Position numbers and translations under genes: made by a program. This document shows positions 4,659 to 52,482 of a stretch of DNA of 64,000 nucleotides, piece after piece. The DNA comes from Rhizobium leguminosarum (lineage in GTDB: Bacteria; Pseudomonadota; Alphaproteobacteria; Rhizobiales; Rhizobiaceae), in contig NZ_LWBS01000086.1 in NCBI RefSeq assembly GCF_001652265.1, positions 1 through 64,000 of the forward strand, read 5' to 3'. The notes under the pieces were generated by a model. The model had not been told where the DNA came from. It searched no databases and saw nothing but the letters and a program-made list of their open reading frames with translations. Every line of letters starts with the position of its first letter. The stretch's first letter is position 1.

Positions 4659-5717
4659 TTACTCGATATCTTTTAGTGCATCAAGTGGGCCGATCAGCGC
4701 CGTGCGCGGTGGAACGAGGGTCGGTTGCACCAGATGCGTGATTGCCGGGCGGCGGTCTGCATCGAGGATCGTAAACCCCTTGGTAATCATCGCTTCGCCG
4801 TCCTGCCGGATCATGAAAACGGGGAAAGGCAGGAAGGAGCCGAAGGGATCGTAGTCGTAGCAGCCGACGATGATATCGGCGAAGGTCTCGTGCGGATGCA
4901 GCGCGAGAAAGCGCATCAGCCCTTCGAGATTGATCGACGAATTGACGAAGAATGCGCGCGGCAGCTTTCCATGGCCTTCGTAGAAGGCTTCGAAGGCGCG
5001 GGCAGTCATGGCCGGGGAATAGCCTGTCGGCTGGATGCAGACATCCGGATCTGCGCCCAGCAGTGCGCGCTTTATGTGGCGGAAACCGCGAATTCGCTCA
5101 TGACTGGCATGGTCGTTGCGGCCGCCGAATAGGTACAGATCGTCAGGTGAAAGGGGGCCATCCTCCTGCGCGCGCTCGATGATCGCCTGTGTCAGCATGC
5201 GCGCACCTTCATAATTGTCGCTGATGACCGACGGCGCCAGCGTGCCGGGCAGATCGATGTTGACGTGCTTCAGCCCTGCCTTTTCGCAAACCTTGTGCAC
5301 GCCATCCGGATCGGTTGCGCCGGCAATGAAAAGCTCGTCGATCGAATAGGAGATCAGTGTCTCGACGACCTGACGCTCCTCGTCCGGATCGCGACACCCG
5401 CTGACGACGAGGGGGCACTGGCCGCGACTTCTGACCTGTGCCTCGAAAGACTGCGCCATGGAGGAGAAATAGCGGTTGTCGTGCACCGGCAGCAGAAGAC
5501 CGACGAGACCGGAGCGGGACGAACGCAGGCCGCGAGCCTGCAGGTTTGCCGTATATCCGTGCTCGTTCGCCAGGTTCTGAATGAGCTGGGCCGTCGCCTC
5601 CTTGATACGCCTCTTCCGCCAGCTTCCGTTCAGTACGGCGCTTACGGTGGAAGCCGACGCACCCGATAGGATCGAGAGATCGTAGATTGTCGCCTTTTTC
5701 TTGCTGATGTCTGCCAT
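4659..5717 (-). CDS. LacI-family transcriptional regulator
   Basis: A 352-residue regulator. The chosen ATG (MADISKKKATIYDLS) puts the LacI helix-turn-helix at about residues 9-57 (TIYDLSILSGASASTVSAVL). It is followed by a periplasmic-binding-protein-like effector domain (GLVGLLLPVHDNRYFSSM onward). A much longer open frame extends upstream, but it reads through the divergent promoter and is not credible. It is divergent from the sugar transporter operon starting at 5962. A 20-bp near-perfect palindrome in the shared region is the likely operator. I infer a ligand-responsive repressor of the transporter operon; the effector is probably the imported sugar. Confidence 0.88.
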   Translation of the reverse strand: MADISKKKATIYDLSILSGASASTVSAVLNGSWRKRRIKEATAQLIQNLANEHGYTANLQARGLRSSRSGLVGLLLPVHDNRYFSSMAQSFEAQVRSRGQCPLVVSGCRDPDEERQVVETLISYSIDELFIAGATDPDGVHKVCEKAGLKHVNIDLPGTLAPSVISDNYEGARMLTQAIIERAQEDGPLSPDDLYLFGGRNDHASHERIRGFRHIKRALLGADPDVCIQPTGYSPAMTARAFEAFYEGHGKLPRAFFVNSSINLEGLMRFLALHPHETFADIIVGCYDYDPFGSFLPFPVFMIRQDGEAMITKGFTILDADRRPAITHLVQPTLVPPRTALIGPLDALKDIE

Positions 5718-5790
5718 ATCCCGCCTTTCCGTAGTCGTTCCCTTAGAAACAAACCCCTCTTGACGAAAGCCATACCTTGATCGATAGTTA

Positions 5791-5810
5791 TTGCACCATC
5801 GATTGTGCAA
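5791..5810. promoter_or_regulatory. Probable LacI-type operator
   Basis: TTGCACCATCGATTGTGCAA is a palindrome with 9 of 10 pairs matching, centred on ATCGAT. It lies between the regulator start (5717) and the transporter start (5962). A half-site copy, ATCGATTGCGCAAAAA, follows at 5820-5835. Size, symmetry and position fit a LacI-family operator controlling both divergent units; regulator binding is inferred. Confidence 0.65.
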
Positions 5811-5961
5811 AAAAGAAAGATCGATTGCGCAAAAATGGTTCGCCGGAGGAGGCGGGACGGGAGGCAAGGGTATTCCCTCGCCGTGAAGCAACCAGGAACA
5901 ACCTGCCGCAAAGCGGCCGGTGGTCGTCGTTCGCCATGAGCGACCTTGAGGAGGAGTGAAG

Positions 5962-6945
5962 ATGAGGAGACTTATCGTAGCGGCGTTTGCCGCATCGCTG
6001 TCGCTTGCCGGGGCGGTGGTCGCGTTTGCAGAGGACGCGCCTAAGGTCGGCATTGTCGTCAAGATCGGCGGCATTCCGTGGTTCAATGCGATGGAAGCCG
6101 GCATCAAGGAGCAGGGCCAGAAACTCGGCGTCGATGCCTTCATGATCGGCCCGACCAGCGCCGACCCGGCGCTGCAGGTGCGCGCCATCGAAGACCTGAT
6201 CGCCCAGGGCGTCAAGGTCATCGGTGTGGTTCCGAACGATGCCAAGGTGCTCGAGCCCGTGCTCACCAAGGCGCAAGCCGCCGGCATCAAGGTCATTACG
6301 CATGAATCGCCCTCGCAAAAGGGCGCCGACTGGAATTTCGAACTCGCATCTGCCACCGGTTTTGGTGAGGCGCACGGCAAGCTGCTCGCCGAAAAGATGG
6401 GCGGCAAGGGCGAATATGCCGTCTTCGTCGGCTCGCTCACCGTGCCCCTGCACAATGCCTGGGCGGACGCCGCCATCGCCTATATCAAGGCGAATTATCC
6501 GGACATGAAACTTGTCGGCGACCGTTATGGCGTCGCAGAAGATGTCGACAAAAGCCGGTCGACGGCGCTCGATCTCATCGCTGCCCATCCGGATCTGACA
6601 GGCTTCCTCGCCTTCGGCAGCCAGGGCCCGATCGGCGCCGGGCGCGCTATCGAGGAACGCCGCAAGACGGGCAAGATCTTCGTGCTCGGCCCGTTCTCGC
6701 CCGGCCAGGGCCAGAAGCTGATCAAATCAGGCGCGATATCGGGCGGCTTCATGTGGAATCCGAAGCAGGCCGGCGAAGTCTTCGTCACGCTCGCTGATCG
6801 CCTGATCAAGGGCGAAAGCATCAAGGAAGGTGATGACATTCCGGGTCTCGGCGTGATCAAGCCCGTCGGCAACGACATCATCGTCGATCAGCTGCTGCCG
6901 ATCAACAAAGATACGGTCGACGACCTGGCCGCAATGGGCCTCTGA
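5962..6945 (+). CDS. Sugar ABC transporter, periplasmic binding protein
   Basis: A 327-residue protein with a signal peptide (RRLIVAAFAASLSLAGAVVAFA, cleavage near residue 24) and the type I binding-protein fold of the ribose/rhamnose/AI-2 group (KVGIVVKIGGIPWFNAMEAG, then DPALQVRAIEDLIAQGVKVIGV). The ATG at 5962 is preferred over the GTG at 5956 because a GAGGAG ribosome site ends about 6 bases before it. It is the first gene of an operon with one ATPase and two permeases, the arrangement of rhamnose- and AI-2-type importers. It captures the substrate in the periplasm. The ligand is unknown; the downstream epimerase and aldolase suggest a rare sugar or polyol. Confidence 0.88.
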   Translation: MRRLIVAAFAASLSLAGAVVAFAEDAPKVGIVVKIGGIPWFNAMEAGIKEQGQKLGVDAFMIGPTSADPALQVRAIEDLIAQGVKVIGVVPNDAKVLEPVLTKAQAAGIKVITHESPSQKGADWNFELASATGFGEAHGKLLAEKMGGKGEYAVFVGSLTVPLHNAWADAAIAYIKANYPDMKLVGDRYGVAEDVDKSRSTALDLIAAHPDLTGFLAFGSQGPIGAGRAIEERRKTGKIFVLGPFSPGQGQKLIKSGAISGGFMWNPKQAGEVFVTLADRLIKGESIKEGDDIPGLGVIKPVGNDIIVDQLLPINKDTVDDLAAMGL

Positions 6946-6964
6946 GGAGGCCCCCTCCCCGGGT

Positions 6965-6994
6965 GTCGGGCCGGTCGACATGGACCGGCCCGAC
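6965..6994. other. Intra-operon hairpin
   Basis: A perfect 12-bp inverted repeat (GTCGGGCCGGTC, loop GACATG, GACCGGCCCGAC) lies 19 bases after the binding-protein stop. No T-tract follows, so it is unlikely to be a full terminator. Hairpins here commonly protect the binding-protein part of the mRNA or attenuate transcription of the membrane components, which are needed in smaller amounts. Confidence 0.7.
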
Positions 6995-7070
6995 GTTCGG
7001 GAAAACGAGCGGTATCCACCATGGCTGGACCATTGACCTTTGATGGCATTCGACTGGACAGGCAACCGGC

Positions 7071-8585
7071 ATGAGCATGGCAACGGATGATGGTGTGAAG
7101 GCCCAGCCGCTTCTTTCGCTTCGCGGCATCAACATGACATTCGGCGGTGTGAAGGCACTGAAAAACGTCTCCTTCGAAGTCTTGCCTGGCGAGGTGCATT
7201 GCTTGGCCGGCGAGAATGGTTCCGGCAAGAGCACCCTTATCAAGGTGATCTCCGGCGTCTATCGGCCTGCAGACGGCGCCGAGATCGTCTTCGACGGTGA
7301 GGCGATATCCCACATGACGCCGGGCATGGCCCAGTCCCGCGGCATCCAGATCATCTGGCAGGACCTCGCACTCTTTCCGGAAATGAGCGTGGCTGAGAAT
7401 ATCGCCTTCCAGACCCTTTCCGGTTCGCGCCCGCGCTTCGTCAATTATGCCGCGATCCGCGGCATAGCCGAGGAGGCGCTCGCCCGGCTTGGCATCACTC
7501 TCGACGTCGATAGACCTCTCAAGGACTTCGCCATCGCCCAGCGTCAGATCGTCGCCATCGCCCGCGCGCTGGTCGGAGAGGCCCGGATCGTCTTCATGGA
7601 CGAGCCGACCGCCTCGCTCACCCAGTCTGAGACCGATCATCTGCTGGCGATCGTGCGCACGCTGTCGGCTTCGGGCGTTGCCGTGGTCTTCGTCAGCCAT
7701 CGCCTTGCGGAAGTGCTGGAAATCTCCTCGCGCATCACGGTACTGCGCGACGGTGCGCTGGTCGGGGTCTATCCGGTGGAGGGCATGACCCAGTCTAAGA
7801 TCACCGAGCTGATGACCGGGCGCACCTTCGACCAGAATGTTCTCGCCCGCGACCTATCGCAGAACCCGGTCCTGCTCTCTGTCAGCAAGCTTTCCCGGCC
7901 TGGCGAGTTCGAGGACATCTCCTTCGATCTGCGCCGTGGCGAGACGCTTGGGATAACCGGCCTGCTCGGCTCCGGGCGCACCGAACTTGCGCTTACGCTA
8001 TTCGGCATGCGCAAGCCCGCCGCCGGAACGATCGTGTTGGAGGGAAAGCCGATGCGCTTTGCCTCCAACCGCGAGGCGATCACATCAGGCGTCGCCTATC
8101 TCTCCGAAGACCGCCTGTCGCTCGGTCTCAACCAGCCGCAATCCATCGCCGACAATCTGGTCATGGCCTCGCTCAATCGTATCCTGAGCGGCCGCCTCAT
8201 TTCGCCGGAAAAGAAGCGCTCGCTGGTCGCGCGCTGGATCGCCGATCTCGGCGTCAGGATCGGTAAGCAGGACGATGCGATCTCGACGCTTTCGGGCGGC
8301 AACCAGCAGCGCGTTGCGATCGCCAAATGGCTCGCCACCGATCCCAAGGTGCTGATCCTCGATGCGCCTACCGTCGGCGTCGATGTCGGCGCCCGCGCGG
8401 GCATCTTCGAAATCGTTGCACGCCTCGCCGAGGCGGGGCTTGCGATCATCCTGATTTCGGACGAGGTGCCGGAGGTCTATTTCAACGCCGATCGGATCAT
8501 CCATATGGAAAAGGGCCGCATCGCCGGCTGGCACGATCCGCGCGCGACCACACTGAAGGACCTGGAGGCGGCGGTCTATGCGTAA
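7071..8585 (+). CDS. Sugar ABC transporter, duplicated ATP-binding protein
   Basis: A 504-residue ATPase of the RbsA/XylG type made of two fused ABC domains. The first half has Walker A GENGSGKSTL, a divergent signature (AIAQRQIVAIARAL) and Walker B VFMDEPTASL. The second half has the degenerate Walker A GLLGSGRTEL and the signature LSGGNQQRV, as usual for monosaccharide importers. It powers uptake through the two permeases encoded next, and its 3' end overlaps the first permease start by 8 bases, suggesting translational coupling. The length is normal for the family. Confidence 0.92.
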   Translation: MSMATDDGVKAQPLLSLRGINMTFGGVKALKNVSFEVLPGEVHCLAGENGSGKSTLIKVISGVYRPADGAEIVFDGEAISHMTPGMAQSRGIQIIWQDLALFPEMSVAENIAFQTLSGSRPRFVNYAAIRGIAEEALARLGITLDVDRPLKDFAIAQRQIVAIARALVGEARIVFMDEPTASLTQSETDHLLAIVRTLSASGVAVVFVSHRLAEVLEISSRITVLRDGALVGVYPVEGMTQSKITELMTGRTFDQNVLARDLSQNPVLLSVSKLSRPGEFEDISFDLRRGETLGITGLLGSGRTELALTLFGMRKPAAGTIVLEGKPMRFASNREAITSGVAYLSEDRLSLGLNQPQSIADNLVMASLNRILSGRLISPEKKRSLVARWIADLGVRIGKQDDAISTLSGGNQQRVAIAKWLATDPKVLILDAPTVGVDVGARAGIFEIVARLAEAGLAIILISDEVPEVYFNADRIIHMEKGRIAGWHDPRATTLKDLEAAVYA

Positions 8586-9606
8586 GCTGTTCCTGTCCCA
8601 TACGACGGAATTCGTGTTGTTTGCCGTCATCATCGCGATGAGCGTTGTCCTGGCCTTTATGACCGACCGTTTTTTTACGCTCGGCAATGTCTTCGACCTG
8701 CTCAATATCAGCGCGGTCAACATCATTTTTGCCGTCGGCCTGCTCGTGGTGCTGATATCAGGTGGGATCGACATCTCCTTCGCCGTCGCCGCCTCGATCG
8801 TGCAATATGTCACTGCACTTGCGCTCGAGCGGATCGGCGGGGGCGGCTGGCTATCCGGCTTCCTGATTGCGGCCGGCATCGGCATCGTGCTCGGCGTGAT
8901 CAACGCCTTCCTGATCCACCGCTTCCGCATCATCTCGATCGTCGCGACGATCGCGACCTTCAACGTCTATTTCGGCTTGCTGATGTTTTTCACCAAGGGG
9001 GTGTCGATCTACAATCTGCCCGACTGGTTGACGAGCCGCGTCATCATCTACGAGCGCGAAATGGCCGATGGCAGCTGGGCTGAGATCACCTTGCCGGTTG
9101 TCGTCATGGCCGTCTGCACGCTCGCCACCTGGCTCTTTATTACTCGCACGACGACCGGCCGGCAGCTCTATGCCTTCGGCGACAATCCGGAAGGCGCGCG
9201 CCGCTTCGGCATCAATATCGGCGCCATGCAGTTCATCGCCTTCGGCTGGCTTGGATTGATGGCAGGCATCGCCGGTCTCATGCAGGCGCATTATGCGCAG
9301 GAGGTCGTGCCGAACGCACTCTATGGCCGCGAGCTCGATGTCCTGGCCGCCGTGGTGCTCGGCGGCGCGCGGCTAGGCGGCGGCAAAGGCTCGGTGCTTG
9401 GTTGCGTGCTGGGCGTGCTGCTCGTCTCGATCACCCAGAACGGCCTCAACCTGATGGGCGTCTCGCCCTTCGCCTTCAAGATGATCGTCGGCGCGATCAT
9501 CCTCGTTGCAATCACCTTGTCGAGCGCCCGCATCGGCAATCTGGTGCCGGTGTTTGCGACCCGCAAATCGACCGGTGACAGGCCTGCAGACCGGAGAGAG
9601 AGCTGA
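8578..9606 (+). CDS. Sugar ABC transporter permease 1
   Basis: A 342-residue inner-membrane permease of the RbsC/AraH family with 8-10 hydrophobic segments and the conserved loop AAVVLGGARLGGGKGSVLG near residue 260, the contact region for the ATPase. It overlaps the ATPase gene by 8 bases and the second permease by one base (TGATG), so the block is a tightly coupled operon. It should form a heterodimeric channel with permease 2, as in rhamnose- and AI-2-type importers. Confidence 0.9.
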   Translation: MRKLFLSHTTEFVLFAVIIAMSVVLAFMTDRFFTLGNVFDLLNISAVNIIFAVGLLVVLISGGIDISFAVAASIVQYVTALALERIGGGGWLSGFLIAAGIGIVLGVINAFLIHRFRIISIVATIATFNVYFGLLMFFTKGVSIYNLPDWLTSRVIIYEREMADGSWAEITLPVVVMAVCTLATWLFITRTTTGRQLYAFGDNPEGARRFGINIGAMQFIAFGWLGLMAGIAGLMQAHYAQEVVPNALYGRELDVLAAVVLGGARLGGGKGSVLGCVLGVLLVSITQNGLNLMGVSPFAFKMIVGAIILVAITLSSARIGNLVPVFATRKSTGDRPADRRES

Positions 9607-10592
9607 TGAACGCACTCGCCGCCCGCTTCAACTCCGTCTTCGGGGCCGACATGGCCGGTCCCCTCGCCGCGCTGGCGGTCGTGCTCATTGTCTTCAGTTT
9701 CGCCTCGCCGCATTTCCTCACGGGCGCGACCTTCGGATCGGTCGCCTTTCAGCTTCCCGAGCTTGGCATCCTGACGCTTGCCATGTTGATGCCGATCCTC
9801 ACCGGCGGCCTCAACCTTGCGATCACCTTCACCGCCAACATCGCCGGCCTGACGCTCGCCTGGACGCTGCAGGCCAATGGCGGCATCGAAGCTGGTCCGG
9901 TCGCCTTCCTGCTCGGCTCGTTGCTGGCACTTGCCGTCGGCGCGGCAAGCGGCCTGGTCATGGGCCTCGTCATCGCCTTTACCCGCGCCCATCCGATCCT
10001 CGTTTCGCTGTCGATGATGATCTTCCTGCGCGGCCTCGGCGAGTTCCTGACGCGCGGCGGCGATATCTCGGGCTTTCCCACCTTCATCGCTCCGATCGGC
10101 CACGGCAGTATTCTCGGCATCCCGGTACCTTTGTTGATCCTGATCGCCTGCGTGATCGCCAGCCACGTCCTGCTCTCGCGCTCCAAGCTCGGCTTTTCCA
10201 CCTACATGATCGGCTCCAATATCGAGTCTGCCCGCTATTCCGGCATCAACACCCGCAAAGTCCTGGTGCTGGTCTACATGCTCTCCGGCGTGATGGCTGC
10301 GGTTGCCGGCATCATCATGCTTGCGCGGTTCAATTCGGTGCGCGTCGGCCACGGCGAGTCCTATCTGCTGATCACCGTGCTCGCCTGCTTCCTCGGCGGC
10401 ATCAATCCCTTTGGCGGCTTCGGCCGCGTCCTGCCCGTCTTCGTGGCGCTCATCGTGCTGCAGCTCCTCTCTTCGGGGCTCAACCTGCTCGGCGCCAACC
10501 AGCACCTCACCACTGCCGTCTGGGGCATCCTGCTCATCGTCGTGATGGTGCTGCGGTGGTTCTCGGCAAAGTTCATCAGAATCGTGAAATAG
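9606..10592 (+). CDS. Sugar ABC transporter permease 2
   Basis: A 328-residue permease of the same family as its upstream neighbour. It has a run of transmembrane segments and the loop ITVLACFLGGINPFGGFGRV, the counterpart of the conserved permease loop. The ATG overlaps the TGA of permease 1. Two separate permease genes distinguish this system from the single-permease EryEFG importer elsewhere in the window. The epimerase gene follows 11 bases later, so the enzyme is co-transcribed with the transporter. Confidence 0.9.
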   Translation: MNALAARFNSVFGADMAGPLAALAVVLIVFSFASPHFLTGATFGSVAFQLPELGILTLAMLMPILTGGLNLAITFTANIAGLTLAWTLQANGGIEAGPVAFLLGSLLALAVGAASGLVMGLVIAFTRAHPILVSLSMMIFLRGLGEFLTRGGDISGFPTFIAPIGHGSILGIPVPLLILIACVIASHVLLSRSKLGFSTYMIGSNIESARYSGINTRKVLVLVYMLSGVMAAVAGIIMLARFNSVRVGHGESYLLITVLACFLGGINPFGGFGRVLPVFVALIVLQLLSSGLNLLGANQHLTTAVWGILLIVVMVLRWFSAKFIRIVK

Positions 10593-10603
10593 GAGATACG
10601 ACC

Positions 10604-11452
10604 ATGGAAGGTTTCGGCGTTCACACCAGCATGTGGACCATGAACTGGGATCGCGCAGGCGCCGAGAAGGCGATTGCCGGAGCCGTGCATTACAAAATGG
10701 ACTTCATCGAGATCGCGCTGCTCAATGCGCCGGCCGTAGATACCAAACACACCCGCGACCTGCTCGAAAAGTACAAACTGCGCGCCGTCTGCTCGCTCGG
10801 CCTGCCGGAACATGCCTGGGCTTCCGTTCGCCCGGATGCGGCGATCGAGCATCTGAAGGTCGCGATCGAAAAGACCGCGGAAATGAATGCGGAAGCTCTG
10901 TCCGGCGTCATCTTCGGCGGCATCGGCGAGCGTACCGGCGTGCCGCCGACGCAAGGCGAATACGACAACATCGCCAAGGTGCTCGACGCGGCGGCAAAAC
11001 ATGCGAGGAAGTACGGCATTCATCTCGGCGTCGAGGCGGTGAACCGCTATGAGAACCACCTGATCAACTCGGCGCAGCAAGCCGTCGACATGGTGGAGCG
11101 TGTCGGCGCGGATAACATCTTCGTTCACCTCGACACCTACCACATGAATATCGAGGAAAAGGGAGCGGCAAACGGCATCCTGATCGCCCGCGATCATCTC
11201 AAGTACATCCATCTCTCTGAAAGCGACCGCGGCACGCCGGGCTACGGCAACATCCCGTGGGATGCGATCTATGCCGCTCTCGCCGCAATCGGCTTCAAGG
11301 GCGGACTTGCCATGGAAAGCTTCATCAATATGCCGGCGGAAGTGGCCTATGGCCTGGCTGTCTGGCGCCCCGTTGCGCGCGATATGGAAGAGGTCATGGA
11401 CAAGGGCCTGCCGTTCCTGCGCAATAAGGCGGAACAATACGGTCTCATATGA
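10604..11452 (+). CDS. TIM-barrel sugar epimerase, D-tagatose/D-allulose 3-epimerase-like
   Basis: A 282-residue xylose-isomerase-like TIM barrel. The four metal ligands expected of ketose 3-epimerases are in place: E144 (VEAVNRYENH), D177 (HLDTYHMN), H203 (YIHLSESDRG) and E238 (AMESF). Their spacing equals that of known D-tagatose and D-allulose 3-epimerases with a constant offset. E144 and E238 would also be the acid/base pair that inverts C3. It is the last gene of the transporter operon, 11 bases after permease 2. It could act on the free imported ketose or, like D-allulose-6-phosphate 3-epimerase, on a phosphorylated ketose. The exact substrate is unknown. Confidence 0.8.
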   Translation: MEGFGVHTSMWTMNWDRAGAEKAIAGAVHYKMDFIEIALLNAPAVDTKHTRDLLEKYKLRAVCSLGLPEHAWASVRPDAAIEHLKVAIEKTAEMNAEALSGVIFGGIGERTGVPPTQGEYDNIAKVLDAAAKHARKYGIHLGVEAVNRYENHLINSAQQAVDMVERVGADNIFVHLDTYHMNIEEKGAANGILIARDHLKYIHLSESDRGTPGYGNIPWDAIYAALAAIGFKGGLAMESFINMPAEVAYGLAVWRPVARDMEEVMDKGLPFLRNKAEQYGLI

Positions 11453-11797
11453 TGCAGTGCCGGAATTCCGGATTCCACTGTTGGCCGACTGCCATCAACC
11501 ACAAGCCATAACAGCCAGCGGCCGCACGGGTGTTATGGCTGAAGAATTCTCGCCATCGCCGGCTAGGGGCATGACGCCCCATCTCTTCAGCACAGGCCTG
11601 AATTTCATTCGGCTCACCTGCGGAATGACTCTTGAGAAATATCATACTCGTTGTGATATTGTTATTATTGCTTGTTACATTCCTTCTGCTATGCCATTTT
11701 GCCTATTAAAATAAGACGCTTGAACGGCTCACGCCCGGGCTCTAGTTTCGAAGAGATGGCGGCGTTTCGATCGACCATCGATATGGGGGAATCTTGG
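11453..11797. other. Intergenic region upstream of the aldolase gene
   Basis: 345 bases without a recognisable gene. Besides the inverted repeat above, it holds an AT-rich stretch at 11636-11710 with an interrupted palindrome, ATATCA-N9-TGATAT (11639-11659). This is a plausible promoter/operator zone for the aldolase gene. The gene could therefore be transcribed separately from the transporter operon. Confidence 0.45.
11504..11540. other. Inverted repeat downstream of the epimerase gene
   Basis: Perfect 10-bp arms AGCCATAACA (11504-11513) and TGTTATGGCT (11531-11540) with a 17-base GC-rich spacer. It sits 51 bases after the epimerase stop. It could be a weak terminator of the transporter operon or an operator for the aldolase gene; no T-tract follows. 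Confidence 0.45.
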
Positions 11798-12862
11798 ATG
11801 GCACGCATTACGCTGAGGCAACTGCTCGACCATGCTGCGGAGGAAGGCTACGGCGTTCCCGCTTTCAACATCAATAACATGGAGCAGGCGCTCGCCATCA
11901 TGGAGGCCGCTGACGCGTGTCATGCGCCGGTTATCATGCAGGCGTCGCGCGGAGCCCGCGCCTATGCCCATGACATCATGCTGAAGCACATGATGGATGC
12001 CGTCGTTGAAATCTATCCGCATATTCCGGTCTGCGTGCATCTCGATCACGGCAACGATCCCTCCAACTGCATGACGGCGATCCAGGCGGGCTTCACCTCG
12101 GTGATGATGGATGGTTCGCTGAGGGCGGACGCCAAGACGCCTGCTGACTGGGCCTATAATGTCGGCGTCACCAAGATGGTGACGGATATGGCGCATTTCG
12201 GCGGCATCTCGGTGGAAGGCGAACTCGGCGTTCTCGGTTCTCTGGAGACTGGCATGGGCGAGGCCGAGGACGGCCACGGCGCCGAGGGCAAGCTTTCGCA
12301 TGACCAATTGCTGACCGATCCGGACGAAGCCGTGAAGTTCGTGCGCGAAACCAAGGTCGACGCGCTCGCCATCGCGATGGGCACATCGCATGGCGCTTAC
12401 AAGTTCACCCGCAAGCCGGACGGTTCGGTGCTGGCGATGAACGTCATCGAAGAAATTCACCGTAAGCTCCCGAACACGCATCTCGTCATGCACGGCTCGT
12501 CCTCGGTCCCGATCGAGCTGCAGGAGATCATCAACAAATATGGCGGTCAGATGAAGCCGACATGGGGAGTGCCGGTCGAGGAAATCCAGCGCGGCATCAA
12601 GAACGGCGTGCGCAAGGTCAACATCGATACCGACGGCAGAATGGCGATGACCGGCCAGATTCGCCGCGTGCTGCAGGAGGACCCGAGCGAGTTCGACCCG
12701 CGCAAATATCTGAAGCCGGCGATGGCGGCGCTGACCAAGCTCTGCAAGGAGCGCTTCGAACAGTTCGGCACGGCCGGTATGGCAGGCCGCATCACGCCCC
12801 TTCCCGTTTCGGAAATGGCGAAGCGTTACAAGTCCGGTTCCCTCGATCCGGCTTTCTCCTGA
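11798..12862 (+). CDS. Class II (zinc) fructose-bisphosphate-type aldolase
   Basis: A 354-residue class II aldolase resembling the Calvin-cycle subtype. The metal ligands H84, H198 (GTSHGAYK) and H232 (VMHGSSS), the catalytic D83 (HLDHGND) and E142 (VEGELGVLG) are all present. The start at MARITLRQ has a GGGGA site 8 bases upstream; a longer frame upstream lacks support. The family cleaves ketose 1-phosphates or 1,6-bisphosphates to DHAP and an aldehyde. Between a rare-sugar transporter/epimerase and a kinase/GlpD-like pair, I infer a catabolic role on a ketose 1-phosphate rather than central glycolysis. An ordinary spare FBA remains possible. The next gene is convergent, with a RIME between. 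Confidence 0.85.
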
Positions 12863-12869
12863 AACTGGG

Positions 12870-12924
12870 CTAGATGATGATGCCGAAAAGTGTGAAGCGG
12901 TTTTCGGACGACATCCTGTTCTAG
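12870..12924. repeat. RIME-type repeat, shortened mosaic copy
   Basis: It runs from CTAG at 12870 to CTAG at 12921-12924 and contains the core GCCGAAAAGTGTGAAGCGG and the matching TTTTCGGACGACAT arm. It then jumps to the CCTGTTCTAG end seen in the longer copies at 19403 and 60827, so the middle of the element is missing. It fills the gap between the convergent aldolase and GlpD-like genes. Its outer CTAG supplies the TAG stop of the latter. Confidence 0.8.
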
Positions 12925-14672
12925 CCCGAGGCCGGGCGGGGTGCCTTTTCCGGCTCGGCGGCGACAGGTCCGCCCGTCAATGCTTGGCCGTGGAAGCGGC
13001 TCAGCTGGCTGACAACGTCCTCGATTTCGCTTGCCGTGCGTTCGGCATTCCAATCGAGCGCCGCCCCGGCAACGCCGGCGATTTCGCTCAGGCCTTCCAG
13101 CGTCAGCCGGCCCTCGATCGCAAGCGTCGTGCGGCGCATGACGATGTCCGACAGATGGACGACGAGTTCGTTCCGGGCGATCCAGTCGATCTCGCGGAGA
13201 CTGTAACGCGGCGCACCCTTTAGGCGCTGCTCGTCGGAATAGCTGGATGCAGAAGAAAGGTGCGCCGCAGCCGTCGTGCCGTAGCGGCCGAGCAGTTCGT
13301 CGGCTCGCTCGGCAACGAGGCCGCTGCGCGTCACGGCATCCCTGATCCAGGCGCTACGCTGCTCAGCATCAACCGGAAAGGCCTTGCCGCCGCCGATCGC
13401 CAAATAGCGTGTCGACTGGCTGCGGCTGCGCTGCAGCCGGGAGAGAACGGTGTCGGCGACCTCTTCGGCAAAGCCGCGGAACGTTGTCCACTTGCCTCCG
13501 ACCAGCGAAATGATCGGAAACGATCTGCCCTTCTCTGGCTCCTTCACCGGCGCGGAGTGATCGCGGCTGATCAACCCCGGCGCGGCCGCATCCGATGCCG
13601 GTAGCGGGCGGATGCCGCTATAGCTGTAAACGATCTGATCGCGATCGAAGCGGAGGGTCGGCAGCAGCGAGCGGACGCTTTCGAGGAAATACTCGGTTTC
13701 CGGCTCTTCGCAGCGGACATTGTCCGGATCATCAGCCGGAATGTCGGTCGAACCGACCAGTGCCAGCCCGAGATAGTCGTAGACCAGGCAAATGCGGCCG
13801 TCGTCGGCCTCGAAATAGATCATGTGGCCGTTGAGGCTTCGTACCAATTCGGGATGGTCAAGCAGGATATGGGAACCCTTGGTGCCGCCGATCAGGCGCG
13901 ATGGAGCGCCGAGCAAAGCGTTGACGTGATCGATCCAGGGACCTGCCGCATTGACGACCAGCTTGGGAGCAACGGTGAACGCGTGACCATCGGGCTGCCG
14001 GAAGGTCAAACGCCCTTCTAAAACGGTAGCCAGTGTCGCGAAATTTGCCGCGAGGCTTCTCTCGTTCGCGTCGAGACCATCACGCACGAGCTCATAGACG
14101 AGCCGTTCCGGCCTGCTGATCTTGGCGTCGTAATAGATGCCGCCGGCGACGATGGCGGGGGTGACATGCGGCATTTCCTTGCGCGCCTGTTTCTTCAGGA
14201 TCAGCCGGTGGCGCGGCATGACCTGGTCGCGTGAACCGAAAAAGTCATAGAGCCGAAGCCCGATCTTGATGAGAACGGCACCACGGCTGCGTGGCGCCGT
14301 CTTCGACCCGAAGAGCGTCCGGATCGCTGCCCAGATGCCGCGGGTCCAGGAAAAGACCGGAATGAAGGTCGGCAGCGGCTCGACGCAATGCGGCGCGTTC
14401 TTGAGCAGGAGGTTGCGCTCAAGCGTCGACTGCGCAACCAGTCCGAACTCACCCGTCTCCAGATATTTCAGGCCGCCGTGAATCAGCCGCGATGGTGCGG
14501 CGCTCGTGCCGGAACCAAAGTCGGCCTTGTCGACGATCAGGCAATTGACACCCTGTATCGAGAGGTCGCGGAACAGGCCGGCGCCGTTGATGCCCGCCCC
14601 GATGATCAAAACGTCGATATCGCTCTCGCCGAGGTTCGAGAAGCGCTGCTGCAAATCGGGGGTCATGCTCAT
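12921..14672 (-). CDS. GlpD-like FAD-dependent polyol-phosphate dehydrogenase
   Basis: A 583-residue flavoprotein of the glycerol-3-phosphate dehydrogenase (GlpD/GlpA) family. The FAD motif is DVLIIGAGINGAGLFRDL near residue 18, followed by SGTSAAPSRLIHGGLKYLE, the substrate/FAD region conserved in GlpD and EryB. A C-terminal GlpD helical domain follows. It is about 80 residues longer than EryB in the same window, mostly at the two ends. It lies 37 bases after the FGGY kinase gene in one operon. By family chemistry it would oxidise a polyol 1-phosphate at C2 to a 2-ketose 1-phosphate and pass electrons to quinone at the membrane. Plain glycerol 3-phosphate is the alternative substrate. Confidence 0.85.
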   Translation of the reverse strand: MSMTPDLQQRFSNLGESDIDVLIIGAGINGAGLFRDLSIQGVNCLIVDKADFGSGTSAAPSRLIHGGLKYLETGEFGLVAQSTLERNLLLKNAPHCVEPLPTFIPVFSWTRGIWAAIRTLFGSKTAPRSRGAVLIKIGLRLYDFFGSRDQVMPRHRLILKKQARKEMPHVTPAIVAGGIYYDAKISRPERLVYELVRDGLDANERSLAANFATLATVLEGRLTFRQPDGHAFTVAPKLVVNAAGPWIDHVNALLGAPSRLIGGTKGSHILLDHPELVRSLNGHMIYFEADDGRICLVYDYLGLALVGSTDIPADDPDNVRCEEPETEYFLESVRSLLPTLRFDRDQIVYSYSGIRPLPASDAAAPGLISRDHSAPVKEPEKGRSFPIISLVGGKWTTFRGFAEEVADTVLSRLQRSRSQSTRYLAIGGGKAFPVDAEQRSAWIRDAVTRSGLVAERADELLGRYGTTAAAHLSSASSYSDEQRLKGAPRYSLREIDWIARNELVVHLSDIVMRRTTLAIEGRLTLEGLSEIAGVAGAALDWNAERTASEIEDVVSQLSRFHGQALTGGPVAAEPEKAPRPASG

Positions 14673-14709
14673 CGTCCTAAATTGCCCGCCGCAGCAAGCA
14701 TTTGTCTTT

Positions 14710-16239
14710 TCAATTTGCCGATTGCTCCGGCGCAAGCGCGGCAATCCTAGGCCAAAGGGGGATCATCGCGTCGGCAATGTCGCAGAACACCTGGTAACGC
14801 TTTTCATAATCCGCGCTGCGCGCCGCATCGGGCCGGCAAGTCTTTGCGATGGAGGCCGTGTCGCGCGGATCGCTCTGCGGATCGGCAAAGATACCGGCGC
14901 CCGACCCAGCACAAAGCGCAGCACCCCAGGCGGCCGCCTCATCCGTCTCGGTTACCGTGACCGGCATGCCAAGCACATCGGCAAACATCTGCACGACGGT
15001 AGGATTGCGCGAGACGCCCCCGGCGAGCCGCGCCTGATCGAAGGCAAAGCCGTCGCGAAGCGCGTCGACATGAATGCGATGATTGAAAGCGATGCCCTCA
15101 AGCACGGCGCGCAGCATGTCGCCGCGGTCGTGCCATCCACCGAGACCGAAGAAACCGGCGCTCGCCGCCGCGCCATAAGGAGAGCCGAACAGATAGGGAT
15201 GGAAGAGCGCCGTCGAGGGGCGCTCGAAGGCGGCGTCAATCTCGGGCGCCAGCAGGGCGTGGATCGAGTTGCCTTGCCCCTCGCCATTCGTTCGCTCGGT
15301 AGCGCAGAGCGTATCCAGAAACCAGTCGTAATTGGCTGTCGATGCAGGGGAGATCGACATGCTGTTCCAGATGCCGGGCGCAATCCCGTTGCGGCAGAAC
15401 CAGCGTCGGTCGACACGCGGTTCCGACGAAAGCGTCTCGTTGATCGAATAGGTCCCGGCAATGACCGCGACAATGCCCTTGGCATAAACCCCTGCCCCGA
15501 GCGCCGAGGCCGTGACGTCGTGCAGACCGGCAACGACAGGCGTTCCCTCGGCAAGGCCCGTCAGCTGCGCGGCTTCACGAGTCACGTTTCCGACGATCTG
15601 GTCGGAGCGCGAGGCTGGTGGCAGGGCGTGGACGAGATCCCGCAATCCAAACAGCCGAAGAGCGTCCTCACTGTAGTTCTGCGTTTTGACATTGGTGAAG
15701 GAGGTGCTGGCTTCGGTGCGGTCCGTACCGACGACCCCGGTCAGGCAAAACCGCAGCCAGTCCTTGCAGCTGAAGAAATGGCCAATGCGCTTGTAGCGCT
15801 CAGGCTCCATTTCGCCGATCCAGGCAAGCAATGCCGATGGCGCGGAGACGTGCGGGATCTGTCCTGTCAGTTCGATCGCCAGGTCGGCGACGTCGCTTTT
15901 CGTCCACCGGTCGACGATCGCCCCTGCCCGGCTGTCCAGCGAAAGAATGGCTCGGCCGAGCGGCTTTTGGGCGTGATCGAGCAGGTAGATGCCGTCTCCA
16001 TGCGCGGTCGCGGCAATGGCCTGTATGTCGCTTGCCGGCCGCCCGCTGAGCGAAATCGCCTCGCGGATGGCATCCGCCGTCGCGTTCCACAACTCATTCA
16101 TGTCGCGCTCGATATGGCGGGCCTTCGGAATGAACTGCGTGACGCGGCGGCGCGCGACTGCAAGCGGCGTGCCGTCGATATCGAAGATGACCGCCTTGGT
16201 GACTGTCAAACCACTATCGATCCCGAGCAGTGTCGGCAT
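14710..16239 (-). CDS. FGGY-family carbohydrate kinase
   Basis: A 509-residue kinase of the FGGY family with the N-terminal phosphate-binding loop GIDSGLTVTKAVIFDIDG and the TAHGDGIYLL segment that corresponds to TGQGDGTWLV in the erythritol kinase EryA of this window. The C-terminal half has GLHDVTASALGAGVY and ARLAGGVSRNPTVVQMFAD, the usual ATP-binding elements. Length is typical. It sits between a DeoR regulator and a GlpD-like gene, the same kinase-dehydrogenase pairing as eryA/eryB. I infer phosphorylation of a polyol at a terminal hydroxyl. L-xylulose or another ketose cannot be excluded. Confidence 0.88.
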   Translation of the reverse strand: MPTLLGIDSGLTVTKAVIFDIDGTPLAVARRRVTQFIPKARHIERDMNELWNATADAIREAISLSGRPASDIQAIAATAHGDGIYLLDHAQKPLGRAILSLDSRAGAIVDRWTKSDVADLAIELTGQIPHVSAPSALLAWIGEMEPERYKRIGHFFSCKDWLRFCLTGVVGTDRTEASTSFTNVKTQNYSEDALRLFGLRDLVHALPPASRSDQIVGNVTREAAQLTGLAEGTPVVAGLHDVTASALGAGVYAKGIVAVIAGTYSINETLSSEPRVDRRWFCRNGIAPGIWNSMSISPASTANYDWFLDTLCATERTNGEGQGNSIHALLAPEIDAAFERPSTALFHPYLFGSPYGAAASAGFFGLGGWHDRGDMLRAVLEGIAFNHRIHVDALRDGFAFDQARLAGGVSRNPTVVQMFADVLGMPVTVTETDEAAAWGAALCAGSGAGIFADPQSDPRDTASIAKTCRPDAARSADYEKRYQVFCDIADAMIPLWPRIAALAPEQSAN

Positions 16240-16276
16240 TTAAATCTACCTCACGAGGAGCAACCGGCCCGCGCCG

Positions 16277-17119
16277 TCAGGAGCGCCCTCCGGCGCCCTT
16301 GGCGATGACCACGTTGATATCTCTGGACCGCATGCGGTCGATGTGCACCGGCTGGGTCTTGTCGTCGACGATAACGACGTCGAACTCATCCAGTGCTGCG
16401 AAACTGTGGAGTGCACGCCGTTCGAACTTGGTATGATCGGCAAGCAGGATGCGTTTTACGGAACAATCGAACATGGCGCGCTTAGTATCGACTGTCTCAG
16501 GAGACTGGTGCAGCACCGTGCCATCGCTGATCGCCGACATCGAGATGAACGCGACATCGGCCCTGAGAGCCTTGATCTCGTTGATGGTCATGCGACCCAT
16601 GAAGGCATTGCACCAATTGTAATACTGGCCGCCGAGGGCGAGCAGCGTCACGTCGTGCAGGCCCGTCAGCGCATTCATCAGCGTCAGGGAATTGGTGATT
16701 GCGGTGACCGGCGCCTTCGAAGGCAGATGCGCCGCCATCTGAAGAACCGTGGTCGAGTCATCAAAAAAGATTGCCTGCCCCGGTTCGACGAACTGCATTG
16801 CCGCCTCGGCGATCAGCTTCTTTTCCACCGACTGACGGTTCGAGCGATAGACGTCGCTGGATTCGATGAGATTGGTCGCCGCCGCCGTGACGATGCCGCG
16901 CGTCTTCCTGAAGAGGCCGCGGCTGACGAGTTCATCGACGTCGCGGTGAGCCGTCATCAGGCTGATCCCAAAGCGGTCGGTCAGGTCTTCAATCCGCATC
17001 GAGCCTAAACCCATCACGGCCTCTGCAATCATGCGGCGGCGCGCGATCTGGCGCGTCTGCCGGCTGTCGCTGGTGAGCTGGTCCAACAGATCGTCGTCCC
17101 GGCTGATCTTCTGTGTCAC
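16277..17119 (-). CDS. DeoR-family transcriptional regulator
   Basis: A 280-residue regulator with a DeoR helix-turn-helix around residues 35-70 (RIEDLTDRFGISLMTAHRDVDEL) and the sugar-phosphate-binding DeoRC domain after it (AIFFDDSTTVLQMAAHL, AITNSLTLMNALTG). DeoR regulators usually respond to a phosphorylated intermediate of the pathway they control. It is the first gene of the operon with the FGGY kinase (37 bases downstream) and the GlpD-like gene, and is separated from eryG upstream by a hairpin terminator. It probably controls this second polyol module. Confidence 0.88.
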   Translation of the reverse strand: MTQKISRDDDLLDQLTSDSRQTRQIARRRMIAEAVMGLGSMRIEDLTDRFGISLMTAHRDVDELVSRGLFRKTRGIVTAAATNLIESSDVYRSNRQSVEKKLIAEAAMQFVEPGQAIFFDDSTTVLQMAAHLPSKAPVTAITNSLTLMNALTGLHDVTLLALGGQYYNWCNAFMGRMTINEIKALRADVAFISMSAISDGTVLHQSPETVDTKRAMFDCSVKRILLADHTKFERRALHSFAALDEFDVVIVDDKTQPVHIDRMRSRDINVVIAKGAGGRS

Positions 17120-17238
17120 GGGTCACCCCTGTCGCTGAATTATGGATCCCAGCTTCGTACAGTGATTGCCGCGCCAAGGCAAAAAGGCGAAACGCAATCG
17201 AAGATTGAATCTCCGACCATCGCTCCAGCATGAAAATG

Positions 17239-17260
17239 AGGGCGCTCTTACGAGCGCCCT
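17239..17260. terminator. Bidirectional-looking terminator after eryG
   Basis: A perfect 9-bp stem AGGGCGCTC/GAGCGCCCT with a 4-base loop lies 8 bases past the eryG stop. On the minus strand it is followed by CATTTTCA, and on the plus strand by TTTTA. It separates eryEFG from the downstream DeoR-kinase-GlpD unit. Confidence 0.75.
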
Positions 17261-17268
17261 TTTACCGT

Positions 17269-18216
17269 TTACTGCGCCAGAACGAACGGGCCGGTGTACT
17301 TGTCGATGTTGTCCTTGGTGATTAACAGGCAATCGAAGAGCTGCTTCTCGCTCTTGGCACCGGTGTTACCCGTCTTGATCAGGTTGTCGGCCTGTTTGAC
17401 GGCTTCTTCGGAGAAGACGGCAACCGGTTGGAGGACGGTGTATTGGAGTTCGCCCGCCTTGATGGCAGCAACGGCATCCGGCGAACCGTCGAAGCCGCCG
17501 ACCTTCACATTGGCGAGCTTGCCGGCTTCCTTGAGCGCGGCGATCGCACCGAGCGCCATTTCGTCATTGCCCGAGATGACGCCGACGATATCCGGGTTGG
17601 CCTGCAGCATGGACTGCATCTTGTTATGGCCCTGGGTGCGGTCCCAGTTGGCAACTTCCTTGGCGGCCTTCTTCAGATCCGGATACTGCGAAAGGACAGT
17701 CTCGTATCCGTTCGACCGCGTTGCCGCGTTGTTGTCGGACGGAGCGCCGAAGAGCTCGGCATAGTTGCCCTTGTCGCCGATTGCTTCGACCCATTGCTGC
17801 GCACCGAGAGCGGCACCCTGTGCGTTGTTGGAAACAAGCTGCGCCTTCGCCAGGCCTTCCTGGTTGATTTCGGCGTTGACGAGGATGACCGGGATGCCGG
17901 CTGCAACGGCCTTCTTCACCGCACCGACGGAACCGTCGGCGTTTGCCGGGTCGAGGATGATCGCCACCGACTTGTTGGTTATCGCCGTATCGATCAGGTT
18001 GCTTTCGGTATTGGTGTCACCCTTGTGGGCGTTGACCGAAGCCGTGTAGCCGAGCTTCTCGGCAGTTGCCTTGGCGACATTGCCTTCCGTCAGCCAATAG
18101 GGATTCGACGGATCGTTGACGATGATCGTCATCATGCCCGCTGCCCAAGCCGAGCTTGCAAGAAGCGGTGCTACGGCCGCGGCGGCCAGAAGTATGCGCA
18201 TGCCTTTCTTAAACAT
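17269..18216 (-). CDS. eryG: Erythritol ABC transporter, periplasmic binding protein
   Basis: A 315-residue ribose-type binding protein with a signal peptide ending near SSAWA-AGMM (about residue 25). Visible family blocks are PSNPYWLTEGNVAKATAEKLG, AIILDPANADGSVGAVKKAV, VVSGNDEMALGAIAAL-like (GVISGNDEMALGAIAALKEA) and GFDGSPDAVAAIKAG. Gene order (an ATPase gene, a permease gene and this gene, divergent from eryABCD) matches the erythritol importer of R. leguminosarum, which is why I use the symbol. It captures erythritol in the periplasm. It is the last gene of its operon and is followed by a hairpin terminator. Confidence 0.82.
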   Translation of the reverse strand: MFKKGMRILLAAAAVAPLLASSAWAAGMMTIIVNDPSNPYWLTEGNVAKATAEKLGYTASVNAHKGDTNTESNLIDTAITNKSVAIILDPANADGSVGAVKKAVAAGIPVILVNAEINQEGLAKAQLVSNNAQGAALGAQQWVEAIGDKGNYAELFGAPSDNNAATRSNGYETVLSQYPDLKKAAKEVANWDRTQGHNKMQSMLQANPDIVGVISGNDEMALGAIAALKEAGKLANVKVGGFDGSPDAVAAIKAGELQYTVLQPVAVFSEEAVKQADNLIKTGNTGAKSEKQLFDCLLITKDNIDKYTGPFVLAQ

Positions 18217-18327
18217 AGTCTCTCTCCCATTCGTGAGTTCAGTTATTGCCGGGGATCCGGCAGTGCTTTCCCCAATCGGCTTCGTGGACTCCAGCCTGCC
18301 GTCGTGGATAAGTTTCGGTCTCAGCCG

Positions 18328-19380
18328 TCAGGACGATTTGACCCGGCGGCCGTATTGGATGCTGTTCATGAGGACGGCGAGAACGATCACCGCGCCGGTG
18401 AATACTGTCTGCCAGTAGGCCGAGACGCCGATGATCACGAGGCCGTCCGAAAGAAAGCCGATGACGAAAGCGCCGAGCATGGTGCCGCGAACCGTACCGC
18501 GGCCGCCGGTCAGCGCCGCCCCGCCGATGACCACGGCTGCAATCGCCGTCAGTTCGTAGGTTGTGCCTGCCGTCGGGCCGGCGGAGGTCAGCTGCGAGGA
18601 GAGGACCAGGCCGGCGATTGCGGCACAGACGCCCGAAAGCACATAGACGATGATCTTCACGCGCTTGACCGGAACGCCGGAGAGATCGGCAGCACGCTCG
18701 TTCCCACCTGAGGCATAGAGCCAGCGGCCGAAGGCGGTGCGGCTCAGCACGATCCCGCAAATGATGGCGAGAACCGCAAGCACGATGACGCCGATCGGAA
18801 TGCCTGCGAGGCGGTTGAAGCCGAGCCAGTCGAAGCCGGTATTGCCGAGTTCCGGACGGCCACCGAGATTGTTGTAGGTCAGGCCGTTGGTCATCAAGAG
18901 CGCGATACCGCGGGCGACGTAGAGCACGCCGAGCGAGGCGACGAAGGCCGGCACCTTGAGATAGGCGATCAGCACGCCGTTGACCGCACCGACCAGCGCG
19001 CCGAGCGCACATGTGATGACGACGACGGCCCAGACCGGCGGATAGAGGATGACGCCGACATAGGTGAGCGTGACGCCGTGCATCAGGAAACCGGCGATGC
19101 AGCCTGCAAGCCCCAGTGTCGAGCCGACCGACAGATCGATACCGCCATTGAGGATAACGAGCAGCATGCCGATCGCCAGAATGCCGAAGATCGCGACGTG
19201 CGACGCCATGATGAGGAAGTTGTTCAGCGTGAAGTAATAGGGCGACAGGAACGAGAAGACCGCGATGATGACGATCAGCGCGAAGAAGGCCCGGCCCTCC
19301 AGGATGAGACGCACGATATTGGTATTGCGCTTCGGCCCGCTGGAAACTGATTTCTTTTCGGTGACGTTCGTGACTGACAT
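18328..19380 (-). CDS. eryF: Erythritol ABC transporter permease
   Basis: A 350-residue RbsC-family permease. After a polar N-terminus (MSVTNVTEKK) come 8-10 hydrophobic segments, and AIAAVVIGGAALTGGRGTVRGT near residue 275 is the conserved ATPase-contact loop. The chosen ATG at 19380 excludes an upstream extension that would read through the RIME repeat. It forms a homodimeric channel in the family model, since only one permease gene is present. It lies between eryE and eryG, separated from eryE by a complete RIME. Confidence 0.83.
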   Translation of the reverse strand: MSVTNVTEKKSVSSGPKRNTNIVRLILEGRAFFALIVIIAVFSFLSPYYFTLNNFLIMASHVAIFGILAIGMLLVILNGGIDLSVGSTLGLAGCIAGFLMHGVTLTYVGVILYPPVWAVVVITCALGALVGAVNGVLIAYLKVPAFVASLGVLYVARGIALLMTNGLTYNNLGGRPELGNTGFDWLGFNRLAGIPIGVIVLAVLAIICGIVLSRTAFGRWLYASGGNERAADLSGVPVKRVKIIVYVLSGVCAAIAGLVLSSQLTSAGPTAGTTYELTAIAAVVIGGAALTGGRGTVRGTMLGAFVIGFLSDGLVIIGVSAYWQTVFTGAVIVLAVLMNSIQYGRRVKSS

Positions 19381-19402
19381 AATCAGTGCTCCATAATCCA
19401 GG

Positions 19403-19519
19403 CTAGAGCATGATGCCGAAAAGTGTGCGCGGTTTTCGGACGACATCATGCTTTACTTCTTTGATTTAGATCAGGATTCAGATTTTAGGCCGATCGGGCC
19501 TAAAATCATCCTGATCTAG
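19403..19519. repeat. RIME, complete copy between eryE and eryF
   Basis: A 117-bp element with two palindromes. The first is AGAGCATGATGCCGAAAAGT with its arm TTTTCGGACGACATCATGCT. The second is centred on TAGGCCGATCGGGCCTAAAA and flanked by ATCAGGAT and ATCCTGAT. CTAG occurs at both ends. It matches the copy at 60827-60942 closely and fits the Rhizobium-specific intergenic mosaic element. The right-hand CTAG contains the TAG stop of eryE. Confidence 0.85.
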
Positions 19520-24077: not shown

Positions 24078-24109
24078 TTCTGATGCAGCAGGCATCGAAG
24101 GAGCATGAC

Positions 24110-25621: not shown

Positions 25622-25632
25622 AGGATGCCGCC

Positions 25633-26565: not shown

Positions 26566-26635
26566 GGCGGAGATCTTTAAAAGGCAGCACTGCGATACGG
26601 CGGAATCGCCGCATGACCTTCGAAAAGGAGCCGTG

Positions 26636-29215: not shown

Positions 29216-29226
29216 GGAGAAAGTCC

Positions 29227-30798: not shown

Positions 30799-30810
30799 TT
30801 GGAGGATTCC

Positions 30811-31629: not shown

Positions 31630-31637
31630 ACCCAATC

Positions 31638-48953: not shown

Positions 48954-48970
48954 TTTAGCACTCCTCGATT

Positions 48971-50488: not shown

Positions 50489-50551
50489 TGTTCTTCTCCT
50501 CGGCGGAGCCTCGCTCCGTCCTGATGCGTGAAATTATCAAGGTGCACCGCT

Positions 50552-51262: not shown

Positions 51263-51282
51263 TTCCTTCTCCTCGTTCTAAT

Positions 51283-52473: not shown

Positions 52474-52482
52474 CGTGCTGCC

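Follow-up and report, generated by a model that had tools for sequence, protein, structure and literature searches.

A kinase and GlpD-like dehydrogenase pair in the erythritol locus of Rhizobium leguminosarum as a candidate entry for a second tetritol, beside separate uptake and aldolase modules

Introduction

The erythritol (ery) loci of Rhizobium leguminosarum and Brucella abortus are the described systems closest to the gene row considered here, which occupies positions 4,659 to 17,119 of a 64,000-nucleotide stretch of R. leguminosarum DNA (assembly GCF_001652265.1, contig NZ_LWBS01000086.1, positions 1 to 64,000; hereafter the window) and in which an FGGY kinase and a GlpD-like dehydrogenase lie next to the erythritol genes. 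In R. leguminosarum strain 3841, eryB and eryR-tpiA2-rpiB2 mutants show impairment in each of the five plant rhizospheres tested (PMC11103875), and the binding protein EryG corresponds to pRL120200 (PMC5758756). Erythritol induces both fbaA (COG0191) and fbp at the ery locus of B. abortus (PMC3522698), and a Brucella vaccine strain without fba and tal is unable to use erythritol (PMC11508834). A fructose-bisphosphate aldolase (FBA) gene had already been described by Geddes et al. for two Mesorhizobium species, where it belongs to the ery locus, and for Brucella, where it adjoins rpiB (PMC3599248).

The window carries an erythritol locus of the R. leguminosarum type, with eryEFG diverging from eryABCD and followed by eryR-tpiB-rpiB, and the gene order around the adjoining row is the same on plasmid pRL12 of strain 3841. 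A first-pass annotation had joined this row into one aldolase-terminated polyol pathway that would repeat the first steps of erythritol breakdown and swap the isomerases for an aldolase. The genes it named are present as open reading frames at or near the places it gave, and the families it assigned to them were confirmed; the aldolase-terminated single pathway is not supported. The row would instead consist of three independent modules standing side by side, namely an uptake operon with a ketose 3-epimerase-like protein (module A), an FBA (module B) and a DeoR-kinase-GlpD-like set (module C). As an explanation of the whole, we lean slightly towards modules that are independent of one another, with module C feeding a second tetritol into the ery pathway.

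Many rhizobia and bacteria related to them have the kinase and dehydrogenase pair conserved in their ery loci. It could make further sugar alcohols available to them as nutrients, and a second tetritol branch would explain why these loci hold a second set of first-step enzymes. The comparison also corrects a misreading, in that adjacency to a polyol kinase does not by itself make an aldolase the terminal enzyme of that kinase's pathway.

Genome samples and thresholds

Modularity, protein families, linkage and co-occurrence were all established by computation on the following samples. For the kinase, the best 80 of 326 relatives were kept and up to 10 kb was read on each side of the gene; six of these 80 loci are incomplete in extent (L074, L093, L099, L104, L111 and L124). 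The family sample comprised 150 other genomes, in which a kinase orthologue was accepted at E <= 1e-150, the epimerase and EryC at E <= 1e-100 and a class II FBA at E <= 1e-60. The order sample comprised 198 other genomes, with limits of E <= 1e-120 for the GlpD-like protein and E <= 1e-30 for EryC; 12 of its genomes (L152-L163) were judged from their neighbourhoods to hold the lineage of the pair and, together with L015-L031, make up the 29 pair loci read. The alignment of GlpD-like proteins drew on 109 loci (80 + 17 + 12), some genomes being counted twice, and the kinase tree on 54 chosen rows. Fisher p values of co-occurrence are uncorrected for relatedness, and the assembly of the window's own genome is rated 93% complete.

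Linkage of the kinase and GlpD-like pair

Each of the 80 best loci, kept out of 326 kinase relatives, contains the GlpD-like gene, eryE, eryF, eryG and eryA; eryB, eryC and the DeoR gene are each found in 79. The aldolase lies within 10 kb of the kinase in 31/80 loci, a figure that is a lower bound for linkage to the ery locus because in L037 and L038, two loci read further, it adjoins eryI past the far end. The LacI-transporter-epimerase set accompanies the kinase in only 5/80 loci, all of them from R. leguminosarum-type species, and kinase, GlpD-like gene, epimerase and aldolase likewise occur all together in 5/80. The first-pass annotation, which had the kinase and GlpD steps running into the epimerase and aldolase, had itself named rare co-occurrence of the two halves as the finding that would undo it, and rare co-occurrence is what these counts give.

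Across the family sample the kinase is present in 17/150 other genomes and stands inside an ery locus in 16/17; in G094 the pair is alone, and some 246 kb of one contig separate it from the ery locus. To our knowledge, EryC belongs solely to the tetrulose-phosphate pathway. It is found in 17/17 kinase-bearing genomes vs 18/133 others (Fisher p 4e-13, relatedness uncorrected) and in all 12 order-sample genomes judged to hold the pair, hence in 29/29 genomes checked, and EryH relatives (56-82% identical) are present in 15/15 genomes checked. Furthermore, in 8/29 loci (L029, L031, L156-L160 and L163) the pair shares its strand with eryH and/or eryI and lies no more than about 2 kb from them; in two more (L023 and L027), the pair and these genes are convergent neighbours. 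The pair is tied to EryC, EryH and EryI more than to the aldolase.

The strongest single case for a tetritol link is L161 (genome G581, 8690-19887), where the kinase, the GlpD-like gene and an isomerase over the NF051858 cut-off (247.1 vs 240 bits) face a CUT2 transporter, a DeoR gene and Dak1/Dak2 genes. None of eryA, eryB and eryC was found in the 20 kb read there, and L161 is possibly a stand-alone tetritol or tetrulose locus.

Identity of the kinase and the GlpD-like protein

The FGGY kinase (14713-16239, minus strand; FGGY_N and FGGY_C), a candidate threitol kinase, is 95-96% identical to its counterparts in Rhizobium ruizarguesonis, R. laguerreae, R. leguminosarum, R. sophorae and R. johnstonii 3841. 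Beside it lies a GlpD-like, flavin adenine dinucleotide-dependent polyol-phosphate dehydrogenase (12924-14672, minus strand; DAO and DAO_C), a candidate threitol-phosphate dehydrogenase. The two proteins are 30% identical to EryA and 28% identical to EryB, respectively. Their genes in strain 3841 carry the locus tags RL_RS33910 (kinase) and RL_RS33905 (GlpD-like), next to RL_RS33900 for the aldolase and RL_RS33895 for the epimerase. In the tree, the window kinase falls into a clade of 24 rows (support 97/93), apart from the EryA clade (19 rows, 87/93) and sister to a group here called P (10 rows, 88/68), whose kinases adjoin another GlpD-like gene.

Membership of the kinase in EryA was rejected on this tree and on the 30% identity, and, given the two identities, a recent origin of the pair by duplication of eryA and eryB was rejected. 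Nor are these glycerol genes, as the first-pass annotation had allowed might emerge: the kinase reaches 138.4 vs 590.35 bits for TIGR01311 and its partner 263.8 vs 360 bits for NF008899. The GlpD-like protein also stays below the second EryB/GlpD equivalog model, NF009906 (234.3 vs 352 bits), whereas the window's own EryB scores 871.4 bits against a cut-off of 352. The best NCBIfam score of the kinase is XylB, at 224.4 bits under a cut-off of 380.25.

The His, Arg, Arg, Lys and Thr positions that we take to bind substrate in Escherichia coli GlpD are kept in 109/109 GlpD-like relatives aligned. Arg54 of GlpD is replaced by Lys in 108/108 relatives with a residue there, and is retained by EryB and by the sister GlpD-like protein of the own genome. 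This pattern of positions points to a single, specific substrate that is oxidised in the form of a phosphate ester. A GlpD-like match at E <= 1e-120 was obtained in 23/198 other genomes of the order sample; at E <= 1e-150, none was found in the 384 genomes other than the own one of a class-wide sample. Eleven of the 23 hold only matches of 41-47% identity, and the four neighbourhoods read among them (L164-L166 and L169) carry P-type kinases. Kinases of the P lineage are 40% identical to that of the window, and a DeoC/LacD-type aldolase stands between kinase and GlpD-like gene in 6/9 P loci read (L032-L034 and L167-L169); L164-L166 are without it.

One of these loci, L032 (C327:97000-116999), is a second locus of the own genome, in which positions 7466-19019 hold an FGGY kinase (40%), the DeoC/LacD-type aldolase and a GlpD-like gene (43%), together with an aldo-keto reductase, a SorC regulator, a CUT2 transporter and a GMC oxidoreductase. 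It is a better candidate than the window for an aldolase-terminated polyol pathway, and has relatives in L033, L034 and L167-L169.

Proposed route and its stereochemistry

As part of the erythritol locus, module C would start with the phosphorylation of a second tetritol, most likely threitol, by the kinase; the GlpD-like enzyme would then oxidise the carbon next to the phosphate, giving an erythrulose-1-phosphate for the ery isomerases. The window's EryI is over the cut-off of NF051858, 'D-erythrulose-4-phosphate isomerase' (257.0 bits vs 240). The idea that the pair repeats the chemistry of EryA and EryB is plausible and is retained here from the first-pass annotation; its continuation into the epimerase and the aldolase is not.

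Erythritol is already served by EryA and EryB. Relative to the phosphate, the carbon that GlpD oxidises has the same handedness as the one oxidised by EryB. With this handedness, L-threitol would yield L-erythrulose-1-phosphate (D-3-tetrulose-4-phosphate), the substrate of EryH, so that EryC would be skipped. D-threitol would run against it, and its product would be the substrate of EryC. Because the handedness of GlpD and EryB fits the L-isomer only, L-threitol is, by analogy, our best guess for the substrate. The fuller proposal is a phosphorylation-first pathway from L-threitol through L-threitol-phosphate and L-erythrulose-1-phosphate to EryH and EryI, under which alphaproteobacterial erythritol loci of this kind would serve tetritols in general, through two entries of different stereochemistry onto shared isomerases, with EryC as the switch; it is offered tentatively, its chances standing well short of even. 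No threitol pathway in rhizobia appeared in the literature searched, which covered few subscription papers.

Several points weigh against a tetritol role for the pair. The wider kinase lineage is not bound to isomerases, given the DeoC/LacD-type aldolase of 6/9 P loci, one of which is in the own genome. A class II FBA is present in 15/17 kinase-bearing vs 55/133 other family genomes (p 4e-4); it lies within 20 kb of the kinase in only 3/17 (G016, G103 and G119). L161 itself showed no eryH, the eryC, eryH and eryA-like gene of G581 being elsewhere in its genome, and the distance of some 246 kb in G094 separates the pair from eryC. The linkage to eryC may, in addition, stem from block transfer of the locus. 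Since EryA of Sinorhizobium meliloti also serves pentitols (PMC3599248), shared linkage is no proof of a C4 substrate. The handedness is argued by analogy, and the change between Lys and Arg could equally mark an altered handedness. Finally, neither enzyme activity nor growth nor expression is reported for the kinase or the GlpD-like gene in the literature searched.

The aldolase and the uptake module

The class II aldolase of module B (11798-12859, plus strand; pRL120196 in strain 3841) is over the cut-off of TIGR01521, the FruBisAldo_II_B equivalog (608.4 vs 496.35 bits, residues 3-349 of 354), and its nearest solved chains, 5u4n and 5u7s, are FBA-named. It is the only class II match (PF01116) found in the own genome, which also has a class I FBA on contig C208, and so it is not the sole housekeeping FBA that the first-pass annotation had considered it might prove to be. 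In other genomes its orthologue adjoins eryI (L037 and L038) or the GlpD-like gene (L020). The 345 bases between epimerase and aldolase contain a promoter-like match (11632-11660); two such matches were found in the 1.65 kb scanned vs 0.7 expected, a consensus match of this kind being weak evidence. For strain 3841, pRL120196 is reported as growth-neutral on mannitol minimal and rich medium and is listed beside RL4012 (PMC5118466), which is called class I elsewhere (PMC5758756). Among the tags pRL120194-pRL120199, only pRL120196 turned up in the literature searched, in one paper.

On account of the equivalog score and of the ery linkage in some other genomes, identity as a ketose-1-phosphate aldolase was rejected, and with it the cleavage of a polyol-derived ketose 1-phosphate that the first-pass annotation had assigned to this enzyme. 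Because of its TIGR01521 score and the published data on ery-linked FBA genes, we infer that the aldolase is a helper of erythritol and gluconeogenic growth and not a terminal enzyme. It would condense triose phosphates, or dihydroxyacetone phosphate (DHAP) with erythrose-4-phosphate, and thereby draw erythritol-derived erythrose-4-phosphate into central metabolism.

Module A begins with a LacI-family regulator (4662-5717, minus strand; Pfam LacI and Peripla_BP_4), divergent from the plus-strand row of transporter, epimerase and aldolase genes. The transporter consists of a CUT2 periplasmic binding protein (5956-6942; Peripla_BP_4), a sugar ATP-binding cassette ATPase (7071-8582) and two permeases (8578-9603 and 9606-10589; both BPD_transp_2), all on the plus strand. 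The first-pass label of a rhamnose or autoinducer-2 transporter holds only as a resemblance of the binding protein to RhaS, its best NCBIfam match, and to LsrB; both scores are below cut-off (145.7 vs 342.25 and 114.3 vs 384 bits). Its nearest solved chains, 9i1m and 3d02, gave names and no ligand assignment.

The last gene of the module encodes a ketose-3-epimerase-like TIM barrel of the D-tagatose/D-allulose/L-ribulose type (10604-11449, plus strand). This protein stays below the D-psicose 3-epimerase cut-off of NF051856 (158.8 vs 300 bits). It matches the solved chains 7dz2-7dz6 and 7erm-7ero, named D-tagatose 3-epimerase, at full length (520.7 bits to 7dz5), and 7cj4 at near full length. 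Of the solved relatives considered, MetLRE (7cj4) is the closest one with a bench-tested activity; it acts on free ketoses (PMC8167858), and action on a phosphorylated intermediate, as in the C3 epimerisation that the first-pass annotation had put after oxidation, was rejected on that ground. Module A would be a self-contained uptake operon through which a rare free ketose is imported and epimerised at C3 to a common one.

The epimerase is found in 13/150 other family genomes, and the whole LacI-transporter-epimerase unit in 6/13; none of the kinase, the GlpD-like gene and this aldolase was found in the stretch read at these six complete loci. Among the loci read, module A occupies the ery spot only in R. 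leguminosarum-type species. In L058, L059 and L061, an FGGY kinase follows the epimerase (FGGY_C_2 in L059 and L061, the L058 kinase being 69% identical to it). L059 and L061 have a fuculose-phosphate-type aldolase (PF00596) after the epimerase as well, L058 being cut by its contig end. These loci likely encode a rare-ketose 1-phosphate pathway. Beside the window's epimerase there is neither an FGGY_C_2-type kinase nor a PF00596 aldolase, and the best match to that kinase in the own genome is a 32% relative.

Alternative explanations

It is rather unlikely that the pair serves a pentitol (ribitol, arabitol or xylitol) entering through the ery transporter. The S. meliloti ery-linked locus does handle adonitol and L-arabitol as well (PMC3599248), and the sub-cut-off XylB score of the kinase points the same way; a pentulose 1-phosphate, however, would need an aldolase or a further kinase, neither of which is linked in most loci read, and EryC accompanies the pair in every genome checked. 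The near-constant position of the pair inside the erythritol locus would also suit a second, redundant erythritol route, for example one in which the other end is phosphorylated and EryC bypassed. We consider such a route improbable, as both proteins are far from EryA and EryB and, a weaker point, eryB is required for rhizosphere growth of strain 3841 despite the pair (PMC11103875).

A single pathway through all three modules, from a polyol by way of its 1-phosphate and a 2-ketose 1-phosphate to C3 epimerisation and cleavage into DHAP and an aldehyde, has very little left in its favour. Its genes adjoin, the aldolase is on the GlpD-like side of the pair in the 31 of 80 loci that have it nearby, and the sister loci L032-L034 and L167-L169 show kinase, aldolase and GlpD-like gene in a row, but with an aldolase of DeoC/LacD type. 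Against it stand the scarcity of module A beside the pair, the FBA score of the aldolase, the activity of the epimerase's relative on free ketoses and the gap between epimerase and aldolase, which argues against one operon. Compatible with any of these readings, and in our view evenly poised between right and wrong, is the explanation that module A belongs to a pathway for D-allulose, L-ribulose or D-tagatose, and that the kinase and the ketose-1-phosphate aldolase of this pathway have been lost here or act in trans. The epimerase-kinase order of L058, L059 and L061, completed in the latter two by the PF00596 aldolase, speaks for it; the complete modules L060, L066 and L068 are without a kinase-aldolase pair among the queries used, and the epimerase may simply yield a ketose taken by a general kinase.

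Gene layout and neighbouring genes

The genes of module C are on the minus strand and face the plus-strand genes of modules A and B, with 37-base gaps between the DeoR-type regulator (16280-17119, minus strand; HTH_DeoR and DeoRC), the kinase and the GlpD-like gene. Upstream of them, the ery locus extends over 17.2-29.7 kb. It starts with the erythritol transporter genes for EryG (binding protein), EryF (permease) and EryE (ATPase) at 17272-21060 on the minus strand and continues with the divergent eryA, eryB, eryC and eryD (22476-27568, plus strand) and with eryR, eryH (tpiA2) and eryI (rpiB2) at 27672-29679, also on the plus strand, both sets in the order of pRL12. A terminator-like hairpin lies 3' of eryG (17239-17260, minus strand; 9 pairs, 7 of them G-C; one found vs 0.3 expected). 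It would make DeoR-kinase-GlpD a transcript separate from eryG, a consensus match being weak evidence here too.

In G094, eryG is still followed by a DeoR gene with 75% identity to that of module C (L170, G094:C9, 8373-19805, and L030), although the kinase-DeoR-GlpD set is about 246 kb distant. Further along the window, inspection by eye gave a Ku-like gene and two LigD-like genes of non-homologous end joining (29899-32681 and 42442-45087), and strain 3841 has a ligD gene annotated at the corresponding place. Positions 48048-54219, again by eye, hold a dihydrodipicolinate-synthase-like protein, an aldehyde dehydrogenase, an enolase-superfamily protein and an IlvD/EDD-type dehydratase, a sugar-acid set and perhaps a route to 2-oxoglutarate.

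Comparison with known systems

The window holds, in a closely related genome, the R. leguminosarum erythritol locus of pRL12 of strain 3841, with the same genes in the same order; the available text portions of the published account of that locus (PMC3599248) name no second kinase-GlpD pair. The B. abortus cluster BAB2_0364-0378 carries fbp-fbaA, deoR-tpiA2-rpiB and rbsACB-deoR, and resembles the window in an erythritol-induced COG0191 aldolase at the ery locus and in a DeoR gene after the transporter. It differs in that the accessible parts of that account, compared by description only, name no kinase-dehydrogenase pair after this DeoR gene (PMC3522698). The lalA-rbtABC pentitol genes of S. 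meliloti, likewise compared by description only, offer a parallel in extra polyol genes within an ery locus (PMC3599248). The threitol pathways of Mycolicibacterium smegmatis share with the present proposal the conversion of C4 polyols through erythrulose phosphates to D-erythrose-4-phosphate; their intermediates are D- and L-erythrulose and the 4-phosphates of these (Huang 2015, as cited in PMC12780249), whereas the route proposed here would phosphorylate first, like the ery pathway.

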